Source: a bacterium
GTDB lineage: Bacteria > Verrucomicrobiota > Verrucomicrobiia > Limisphaerales > UBA11358
Reading direction: 5' to 3'
Length of the DNA stretch: 64,000 bases
Assembly (NCBI GenBank): GCA_021780905.1
Contig: JAJXXW010000018.1
Coordinates: 82,847-146,846, forward strand
This document shows positions 5,601 through 52,066 of the stretch, piece by piece; within the stretch, counting starts at the first letter, position 1; the number at the start of each line of letters is the position of its first letter. Position numbers and translations under genes: made by a program. The notes beneath the pieces are model-generated. The model searched no databases, was not told the origin of the DNA, and saw nothing but the letters and a program-made list of their open reading frames with translations.

Positions 5601-5784
5601 CCGGCATGATGCCGTTGTTCACCAGGACGACGATGCGCGGAAAATCCGTCTGCGGAAAAACCGAGGACGGCGTCCGCATCGCGGAAAAGATTCCCGCCAG
5701 ACACAACACCACCGCGATGAAGGTGATGGAAACCGCGTGGTGGGTGGCGAATCTGCCCAAGCCTGATAAGGATTTGGCGTTCAT
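2683..5784 (-). CDS. RND-family efflux transporter permease (AcrB/HAE1-like)
   Basis: 1033 aa ORF; N-terminal TM plus FPQTDFPRIVV, tandem TM blocks, typical RND architecture; overlaps adaptor gene by 4 bp. Confidence 0.95.
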   Translation of the reverse strand: MNAKSLSGLGRFATHHAVSITFIAVVLCLAGIFSAMRTPSSVFPQTDFPRIVVLVNNGIMPANEMMAAVTRPIEESMKSIPGVVSVRSSTARGSAIVNVIFNWGADMQRAELYVLGQLSEIRGDLPTTAQTDVSRVAFSLSYPIIGISLTSSNRTLMDLWDTANYQIKPLFLQIPGVAKVEIEGGQVPEYHVVVDPLKLQAAHLGLQDVSDALTKNNPVAAAGMIVENHHLYLTTVDGRVHSPDDIGSVVIAVRGGHPVQIKDVAAVARGPAPAYTSITAQGRQAVLFNIESQPDASVLAIASELKSQLAQLRHELPPDMHLTFFYDQSQFVEDSVGSVRDAIIFGLILSVFILFFFLKNWGSVWTAIVTIPISVLITFVILKVTGMSFNMMTLGGVAASIGLIIDNAIIVVEAMCHKLAAGRPRLEGIHEAMGEILTALVGSTLTPVVVFLPLAYLNGMAGVFFRALGLTMVVALLVSLVLAITLTPSLAAWFIRGRGKSDSSGDGAGFVLRPVLRIYEASVRWSLRHAWLTLLGCAVILAAGSLIFRQLETGFLPDFDEGGFVMDFTAQPGTSLAETARVLDEAEQIIRTNADVEGYSRRLGTQLGPFITEPYMGDYLIKLKANRNHSTDEVLAQMRRDFNRRFPMVRWDFHGYLEDLTGDLQLAPTPVEIYLFSPDLKWLQKTAPRVEKQLKDIPGVVDTFSGLTETGPSINLRVRPADAERFGLSAQDIADAVNTALLGQVSSYLLQGDRTVDIRVMAEPGSVNTISKLRDVPMRTTTGAVVRLNQVADLNVAPAEVELNRDNLRQDNIVSARLEGVDLGTAMREIQAALSHDQWLPPGSVEYGGLYQQQQESFRNLLAVLIAAILLVFTVLLIEFRSFYEPIAIVFGSVLALFGSLAALWLSDISLNIISFLGIIIGVGIVAKNGILVLDYFQQLRAQDVELIEALVQAGHRRLRPVLMTSLAAALGMLPLAWGAGTGAQMLQPLGVAVIGALFISVVLSLIATPVVYYLLIQMHLWFLRQQTPKPVA

Positions 5785-29967: not shown

Positions 29968-30077
29968 ACTCCTCACCCCGGCCCTCTCCTCGGTCGGCGA
30001 ACCGGCTGGACCGGCTTGCTCACCAAAGATTGCCATTTTCGGGGTGAAAATTGGCAAAATCAGGTTTTTTTGGCGGA

Positions 30078-30413
30078 TTTGGCGACTTTCAGCGGTCATC
30101 AACCAAGTTGCAGCACCAATAAACCAACTTGCGATGGTCAAAAGGCGACAGCACGAAGGCATTTGGCGACTGGCAGATGCCATCCGGCGACCGCACATGG
30201 TCATAAGTCAACAGCACGAGGCGATAATCCAACTGGAAGATGGCGTTTGGCAACCGACAGATGGCATTTTCCAACTGGCAGCGGTCATTTGGCGACCGGC
30301 AGCAGTCATTTTTCAACCGGCAGATGCGATCCGGCGACTGACAGACGCGATCTTTTGACCGGCAGATTGCATCCGTCCACCGGCAGTTTCAATCCAACGA
30401 ACGGCAAAAGGAG
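30078..30413. repeat. degenerate tandem array, 16 units of exactly 21 bp
   Basis: Manual phasing: tttggcgactttcagcggtca / tcaaccaagttgcagcaccaa / taaaccaacttgcgatggtca / ... / tttggcaaccgacagatggca / ttttccaactggcagcggtca / tttggcgaccggcagcagtca / tttttcaaccggcagatgcga / tccggcgactgacagacgcga ...; no indels. Confidence 0.93.
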
Positions 30414-30427
30414 TCTTGAGGAAACTT

Positions 30428-50279: not shown

Positions 50280-51161
50280 ATGAAGCGATATTTCGGCATT
50301 ATTTACCTCGTGATATTAGTTTTTGCGGTGGGGACCGCCACCAATGCGGTTCCCAAAATGCCGCTGGTTTCAGTTCCATTCGTTTCTTCCCCGGCCAAGG
50401 AGCCGGTAAAGACCGGCTGGCAAGGTTTCAAGCAGCCAGGCGGTTTTGTCATGGCCTTGGCGCGGGATGCGGCGGGTAATCTTTGGGTCGCGACGGAAGG
50501 TGGTGGCGTGTGGCGCTATGCGCCGAAGGCAGAAACGGGGCAAAACGAAAAGCAGAAAGCAGAAGGCGGAAATTTCCTCGCGGCGTCCCCCTCATCCGGC
50601 CTCCGGCCACCTTCTCCCCCAGTGAGGGAGAAGACAGAATGGAAGCGGTTCACCACCAAGGACGGGCTGGGGGATGATTACGGCTATGACGTGGCGGTGG
50701 ATCAGCAGGGGCGGGTGTGGGTGGGGCATTTGAACCACGGCGTCTCGGTGTATAACGGCTATATCTGGAAAAATTATGACATTCCCTATGGTCCCATCGG
50801 CGAGCGGGTTTTCAAAATCGCGGTCTGTCCCACGGACGGGGATGTGTGGATGGCCACCAGTGCGGGGCTGACAGGATATTCAGTCAGCAAGGACACCTGG
50901 ACGCACTATACCAAAGGTCAGGGACTGCCTTCGGATCAGATCAGCACGATTGCCTTTGATGATTGGGGAAATCTCTACCTTGGCACGCAATGCGACGGGG
51001 TGGCCATCGCGAGCCGGTCATCGGATTATGAGGACTGGCGGCGGGCACCGCTGGGCGCACCCAGCGGCCTGCCCTCGCGCCTGATCAATGAGGTGTTGGT
51101 GGCGGATGGCAGCCGAAGCCCAGCCTACCGTTACGGTTTTGGCTGGATTTGGTCGCTTTAG
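50280..51161 (+). CDS. two-component-regulator-type beta-propeller protein, apparently C-terminally truncated
   Basis: Repeats LARDAAGNLWVATEGGGVWRY / VAVDQQGRVWVGHLNHGVSVY / IAFDDWGNLYLGTQCDGVAIA; ends abruptly GSRSPAYRYGFGWIWSL*. Confidence 0.75.
   Translation: MKRYFGIIYLVILVFAVGTATNAVPKMPLVSVPFVSSPAKEPVKTGWQGFKQPGGFVMALARDAAGNLWVATEGGGVWRYAPKAETGQNEKQKAEGGNFLAASPSSGLRPPSPPVREKTEWKRFTTKDGLGDDYGYDVAVDQQGRVWVGHLNHGVSVYNGYIWKNYDIPYGPIGERVFKIAVCPTDGDVWMATSAGLTGYSVSKDTWTHYTKGQGLPSDQISTIAFDDWGNLYLGTQCDGVAIASRSSDYEDWRRAPLGAPSGLPSRLINEVLVADGSRSPAYRYGFGWIWSL
50587..50633. repeat. REP-like palindromic element inside the propeller CDS
   Basis: ccccctcatccggcctccggccaccttctcccccagtgagggagaag: stems ccggcctccgg and cttctccc/gggagaag. 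Confidence 0.75.
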
Positions 51162-51201
51162 GGCAAAAGTGCCATTTTTCAAGGGTTTTTACACAAATCC
51201 A

Positions 51202-51535
51202 TGACGAATGAAGATCAATTCATCATGGTCGAATGTTCTTTCGTCATAAATGGACGCTCTTTCGTCAAGGTTGAATGTTCTCCCAGCGTGGAGACGGCTG
51301 GTTTGTCTTGGGAGAATGTTAATCCGTCTTGGCTGAATATCCTTTTAAGGCGAAAACCGCTGCTTTGTCACGGATGGATGTTCTCCCCTGTCGGTTGGAT
51401 GTCCGACTATGGCAAATCAATGTTTGTTTATGAAGGCTGGATGTTCTTTCATGGTGAACGGTTATTCATTTTTTGCGGTTAAATGCCCTGCCGCCATGGA
51501 CGGTTATGCTTTCGCCATAGATTAGTATATATGCT
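51202..51535. repeat. degenerate tandem array, ~16 units of 21 bp
   Basis: Units tcatggtcgaatgttctttcg / tcataaatggacgctctttcg / tcaaggttgaatgttctccca / ... / tcacggatggatgttctcccc / tgaaggctggatgttctttca / ccatggacggttatgctttcg; two units are 20 bp. Confidence 0.9.
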
Positions 51536-51652
51536 TTTTATTTTAACGTATAATTAAATCATCTTTTGACCCATTGACGGGTGGCGGCAATTTGGATTTA
51601 TTGGCCGCGTTAGTTTTAACGCAATAACCTCAACCAAAAATCAAATAAAGTT

Positions 51653-52066
51653 ATGGCCAGAAAAACGGTTCGCGTAGATATACCCACCAGCAGCCCGGAT
51701 ACGCTCATGGCTTTGAGCCTGTCCATCCTGAAAAAACACGCGGCGGATGGCAATGCCAGCCCGCTGGACAATGACAAGATGACCAAGCTGCAAGCGGCGC
51801 TGAATATTGCCGTGCCGCAAAATCAAGCGGCCTTGGACGCGGATGCCGTGGCGCAAAAGGCGCGGCAGACGCGCGATCAGGCGCTCGGCACGGCGGACGG
51901 CCAGACGGTTTACACCAAAGACACAGCCATGAACATCGTCACTTATACCCGCGATTTGTTGCTGGTGGAAAATGAAGGCACGGAGGAGGCGCTCACGGCC
52001 TACGGCTTCAACGTCGTGGTCGGCTCGGCCAAAAATCCCACGCCCGCGCCCGCCAAGCCGAAATAA
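51653..52066 (+). CDS. hypothetical protein, 137 aa
   Basis: MARKTVRVDIPTSSPDTLMALSLSILKKHAADG..; followed by a strong terminator. Confidence 0.75.
   Translation: MARKTVRVDIPTSSPDTLMALSLSILKKHAADGNASPLDNDKMTKLQAALNIAVPQNQAALDADAVAQKARQTRDQALGTADGQTVYTKDTAMNIVTYTRDLLLVENEGTEEALTAYGFNVVVGSAKNPTPAPAKPK

Follow-up and report, generated by a model that had tools for sequence, protein, structure and literature searches.

The window, the whole 64,000-nucleotide stretch analysed here, comes from a MAG with an estimated contamination of 6.65%. Array B is a tandem array of degenerate 21-bp units that lies between a propeller gene and a small uncharacterized gene. The propeller open reading frame ends at 51161, and the array begins about 40 bp past it, as the first-pass annotation had placed it. 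Within the array region (51202–51535), sequence identity at lag 21 is 0.447, and the runners-up are lag 42 (0.404) followed by lags 62 and 63. Dinucleotide-preserving shuffles gave a lag-21 mean of 0.261 (sd 0.025), and none of 5000 equalled the observed value (z 7.5). In 2000 shuffles of the region, 0.447 was not reached at any lag from 10 to 59. Segmentation, which permitted steps other than 21, yielded 15 units (51206–51518) with 12 spacings of 21 bp and two of 20 bp, a consensus of GGATGAATGTTCTTTCGTCAT, and a mean unit identity to consensus of 64%. These data agree with the initial description of a degenerate array of about 16 units with excess 21-bp periodicity and two single-base contractions, and the consensus given there is the same sequence in rotated form. 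The units are dyad-symmetric in a dyad test. Array B is the second-strongest 21-bp region of the window; array A, which spans 30073–30415 and gives its 21-bp signal over 30085–30410, is stronger and is another member of the class of which array B had been called the second. The distal edge of array B is AT-rich (aaaagtgccatttttcaagggtttttacacaaatcc; 51165–51205). A possible sigma-70 promoter, TTGACG-N17-TTTATT, was identified by consensus match between the array and the gene (51574–51602, forward strand), and alignment finds it in the orthologous locus as well. The gene (51653–52066, forward strand) belongs to a family termed fam3 and encodes an uncharacterized helical protein of 137 residues with the pattern MARKTVRV.IP...GSAK. 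Rfam returned no match at gathering score anywhere in the window, arrays A and B included.

The orthologous array and its downstream gene are present in a congeneric genome, G029, on a contig that appears to be CAIOUK010000170.1, from an uncultured Verrucomicrobia subdivision 3 bacterium. The BLAST match between the two loci starts at 51165, and the AT-rich edge (51165–51201) is 78% identical. Array B aligns to its orthologue at 80.6% identity over 314 bp with zero gaps, whereas the shorter gene-proximal intergenic stretch is 87.5% identical with three gap positions. The four-fold sites of the downstream gene are 86.8% identical, and its protein is 96% identical. The absence of gaps at 80.6% identity shows that the array retains its length even as its sequence diverges, and the slightly greater divergence of the array than of the four-fold sites indicates that its sequence is not strongly conserved. 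The flank upstream of the orthologous array is unrelated to that in the window, and the downstream gene is conserved. The propeller gene is therefore rejected as the partner of the array, since the orthologue has a different flank on that side; array B belongs to the downstream gene.

The first-pass annotation had also noted a 93-residue heptad open reading frame within the array. The frame exists (51201–51482, forward strand), but we judge that it is not a gene. It begins MA* in the G029 orthologue and meets a second in-frame stop further in. The 50 differences between the orthologous arrays fall evenly over codon positions 1, 2, and 3 (14, 18, and 18). Membership of a known protein repeat family, which had been named as a refuting outcome, was looked for, and no family matched the 93-residue frame. 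In favor of a heptapeptide-repeat protein, array B has one open frame and a period of whole codons. The open frame arises as a by-product because the period is divisible by three. Spacings of 20 and 22 bp shift the frame, and the unit of the first array at the Bacteroidota locus L253 carries a stop in all three sense frames. We give almost no credence to a coding array and reject it, since the reading frame is not kept between species and the differences are even over codon positions.

A genome search for further arrays had been suggested; in 856 kb, about ten 21-bp arrays were found in intergenic regions, and they represent at least seven distinct consensus sequences. The scan combined the window with further stretches that were partly chosen as contigs with known hits, so the array density is not an unbiased estimate. 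Seven of the arrays lie directly upstream of uncharacterized genes: three of family fam1 (starting MAKSYYLP..., MPKSDYIA..., and MKGNYVQ...), two of fam2 (MNTKQQNKLAMYLA...), the fam3 gene of the window, and one fam4 gene. One of the two fam2 genes, at array C90a (L137:16079-17036), is truncated after about 30 codons. Just behind it lies an IS200-like gene, judged by eye to be of the Y1 transposase type. Array A shares its type with arrays that precede fam2 genes elsewhere in this genome, in G013, and in G023, but has no fam2 gene, and array C79a is likewise a fam2-type array without the gene. Two convergent genes flank array A with their 3' ends, and the gene on the right resembles, by eye, a gyrase/topoisomerase B subunit. 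A faint array precedes a more distant fam1-like gene at C19. The only case in this genome of a 21-bp array at the 3' end of a small gene (MSVGAKVFNGVTAKNF...) is at L124:17996-18380 on the reverse strand. In 800 kb of relatives (mostly G001, G017, G032, G034, G070, G073, and G096), only a few regions were detected and these resembled coding repeats; fam1 and fam2 were searched for in G001 and G017 and are absent from both. At L218 and L219, the array, the fam2 gene, and the upstream flank are about 91–97% identical between G027 (same genus) and G069 (another family), which is either a recent transfer or a binning error.

The association between arrays and genes was measured across fam1–fam4 loci. 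A period-21 array lies within 600 bp upstream of the gene at 52 of 58 loci and downstream at 5 of 58 (Fisher P = 6e-20), and 21 is the best lag between 14 and 30 at 52 of the 56 testable loci. The short fam2-like matches at L228-L230 and L238, all four of which lack an array upstream, look like members of a different family. Bacteroidota homologues of fam3 with 33–41% identity also carry a 21-bp array directly upstream, weak in L140, and its consensus differs. Two later Bacteroidota sets were collected afterwards by profile. In one, fam1 and fam2 genes have an array upstream in 32 of 44 cases and downstream in 3 of 44. In the other, period-21 arrays lie upstream of 17 fam3 and fam1 loci, which make up most of those with a usable gene start, and the remaining matches are mostly second domains of two-domain proteins. 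Array-calling thresholds were chosen by visual inspection of the first set, and similar but not identical windows and cut-offs were applied to the later sets; about 10–27% of loci per set are without an array. The loci are related, so the counts are not fully independent, but two phyla and three unrelated families agree. In the first set, 627 of 663 unit spacings are exactly 21 bp, 26 are 20 bp, and 9 are 22 bp. The medians are 13 units per array and 132 bp between array and start codon. Units are about 65% alike to their consensus, and the array loci span from 33 to over 60% G+C.

The sequences around the arrays were also compared. TTGAC occurs between array and gene at 12 of 42 loci compared to 4.5 expected, mostly 57–90 bp before the start codon. 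A leader motif shared between loci, TGCCATTTTTC.GGG, was found 72 times compared to 18 in a reversed control, but it was rejected because most of the fetched hits lack an array. At L253, the stretch from array to gene contains a possible promoter that matches the Bacteroidota consensus, TTTG-N20-TACCTTTG. The same locus carries two nearly perfect arrays back to back in opposite orientation between -869 and -344 (TACATGAGCTTTTAGAATGAC x11 and GTTTAAAAGCTCACGGCATGG x14). In one fam1 subgroup (L192, L193, L194, L196, L209, L211, and L212), a short open reading frame of about 50 codons (..DDPN.RW..PSYLLEPGDPGYVPP..) is conserved between the array and the fam1 gene. G+C-rich short-period satellites (CAACCGCG and GCCGCCACTCTCGC) adjoin the far end of the arrays at L185, L193, L196, L206, and L211. 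A terminator-like hairpin (CCCGTAACG...TACGGGTTTTTTT) immediately precedes the array at the paralogous Bacteroidota loci L141 and L144 (about 5690–5725). Several arrays stop 5–40 bp before the start codon. A promoter at these loci must be inside or beyond the array, and transcription of the array is possible there.

An array transcribed ahead of its gene could act as RNA, with the repeats functioning as a multi-unit antitoxin by the logic of type III systems or as a structured leader. The anatomy agrees with type III loci, in which repeats lie upstream of one small gene and vary in sequence by locus (PMC4627078), and many arrays stop close to the start codon. Arrays also score better in RNA folding than controls with permuted columns (mean z −1.6), but both strands gain alike (−1.61 and −1.68), and we did not detect covariation between paired positions within units (z 0.45). 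Local RNA hairpins formed by each unit are rejected on these two grounds. In addition, inverted units occur within the L255 and L142 arrays, an inverted array exists, the partner proteins match no toxin, and the units are only about 65% alike to consensus. We consider a function at the RNA level unlikely. The dyad symmetry of the consensus exceeds that of column permutations at P < 0.05 in 27 of 52 arrays (combined Z 14); column permutation falls short of a complete neutral model, and the symmetry is weak in many fam2 arrays. Dyad symmetry without covariation or strand bias, together with the inverted units and array, points to recognition of double-stranded DNA. Several palindromes are mildly enriched as a common half-site (e.g., GAA-N3..6-TTC), but none is universal.

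The next question is whether the array sequence follows the gene or the host genome. Consensus similarity rises with the identity of the encoded proteins, with mean z values of 7.7 at identities of at least 0.75, 2.6 between 0.5 and 0.75, and 0.45 below 0.5. Arrays in the same genome show no such similarity, with values of 0.13 within a family at protein identity below 0.5 and 0.49 between families. The consensus thus tracks protein orthology and not the host genome, which indicates that array and gene evolve together and makes a single factor of fixed specificity per genome unlikely. One trans-acting factor of this kind is rejected given the lack of same-genome array similarity. A genome-wide host protein, such as a nucleoid protein or global regulator, could instead read spacing and shape, making the arrays upstream silencers or enhancers. 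Conservation of spacing but not sequence would be expected of such a reader, and its blindness to sequence fits the absence of same-genome similarity. However, a shape reader leaves the dyad symmetry of locus-specific sequences unexplained. The 10.5-bp AT harmonic expected of intrinsic curvature is absent from the arrays, and phased A-tracts or curvature are rejected. We consider a host-wide reader rather improbable.

The arrays could also be functionless minisatellites that arise and are homogenized through some mutational process associated with the loci. Near-identical arrays do occur in Bacteroidota at L253 (0.92 lag-21 identity), L272, L284, and L322, and are presumably young. Array B itself drifts about as fast as four-fold sites, or faster. 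However, a neutral process is not expected to hold a step of 21 across two phyla and from 33 to over 60% G+C, nor to place arrays at a fixed position upstream of three unrelated families. The gapless alignment of array B, set against the three gap positions in the shorter stretch beside the gene, also argues against a neutral origin, and we regard this explanation as quite unlikely.

The partner proteins were compared with profile, structure, and mobile-element collections. No family exceeded its Pfam or NCBIfam cut-off, and nothing useful came from PADLOC, PHROGs, or the PDB. Profile comparison of fam1, fam2, and fam3 detected no mutual relationship, and no DNA-binding domain is recognizable in any of the three. 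The fam1 proteins have a helical N-terminal part followed by a C-terminal domain that resembles FN3 (VIA Z about 11, rmsd 2.2, 88 aligned). The AlphaFold model of fam3 has four helices (pLDDT 89); it has no convincing match among PDB and viral structures, which does not in itself make the fold new. Both fam1 and fam3 are absent from 72,556 plasmid records, fam1 is absent from phages, and viral contigs contain no relative of either. Phage or plasmid cargo is rejected on the basis of these searches. The genes neighboring the array loci are ordinary and differ from locus to locus, so the module consists of the array and one gene, with a small open reading frame between them in some fam1 loci.

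Array B forms the upstream part of a module whose other half is a small uncharacterized gene. The module recurs in Verrucomicrobiota and Bacteroidota; the 21-bp step and the position are retained, as is dyad symmetry at many loci, while the array sequence is locus-specific and inherited with the gene. We tentatively favor, at somewhat less than even probability, a cis-acting DNA array that evolves as one module with the gene. A locus-specific partner, perhaps the product of that gene, would probably bind it in two-turn steps. In this view the array would act in cis to the gene and as double-stranded DNA. Each unit of 21 bp spans two helical turns and would be a degenerate dyad site, and a dimeric partner, with a specificity that co-evolves with the locus, would fill the roughly 13 sites on one helix face cooperatively. 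The gene's own product, or a complex that it nucleates, would be the simplest candidate for this partner. The filled array may set transcription of the gene or build a nucleoprotein structure, as iterons do with Rep and parC does with ParR. This arrangement predicts that each protein binds its own array and not that of another locus. A further proposal, to which we assign slightly less weight, is that these loci constitute a new class in which a small, mostly helical protein is paired with its own dyad array of about 13 sites, the step being universal and the sequence a private, co-evolving address. If this is true, many array-protein pairs, each distinct from the others, coexist in a single genome. 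The locus-specific sequences would then be a natural set of orthogonal DNA-protein (or RNA-protein) addresses. The arrays would also offer a first handle on the function of hypothetical proteins that recur in Bacteroidota and Verrucomicrobiota.

This kind of two-part locus is apparently undescribed, as judged by elimination against the libraries at hand and the open-access literature, in which nothing relevant was found on 21-bp or upstream tandem repeats in Verrucomicrobiota or Bacteroidota. Constraint on spacing without constraint on sequence, spanning two phyla and several unrelated unnamed families, is unexplained by any system compared. The arrays share with REP/BIME elements short palindromic units between genes, but REP units repeat a single sequence at dispersed sites, whereas every array locus has a consensus of its own, arranged in direct tandem at a fixed step. 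They share with CRISPR arrays a tandem organization and an AT-rich flank, but the 21-bp units abut, are degenerate (about 65% alike to consensus), and have no spacers. Iterons are tandem direct repeats upstream of a gene whose sequence is matched to a cognate binding protein. In ParR/parC, the locus-specific repeat sequence is also matched to its cognate binding protein (PMC9426499). Tandem direct repeats of about 10–22 bp upstream of a gene and with locus-specific sequence are common to these systems and the present arrays. The present arrays differ in being chromosomal, multi-copy, and more degenerate and in having more units, with no recognizable ParM or Rep at the locus and downstream proteins without a recognizable DNA-binding domain. 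A ParMRC-type centromere lies upstream of a locus that encodes an actin-like ATPase and a ribbon-helix-helix ParR, but the neighbors at the array loci examined are unrelated to each other and include no recurrent ATPase. The arrays are on long contigs with housekeeping neighbors and their partner proteins match no Rep family, unlike plasmid iterons. Type III toxin-antitoxin systems (ToxIN, CptIN, and TenpIN) also have repeats directly upstream of one small gene, with a sequence that differs by locus (PMC4627078). The present units differ in their 21-bp degenerate form, their DNA-level dyad without strand bias, and the lack of a toxin match: the partner proteins gave no Pfam match above cut-off and no NCBIfam toxin or PADLOC match indicative of a ToxN/CptN/TenpN-family endoribonuclease. 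The partner proteins match the protein families of neither system; the closest working analogies are the cognate pairs of parC and ParR and, in anatomy, the type III toxin-antitoxin loci.
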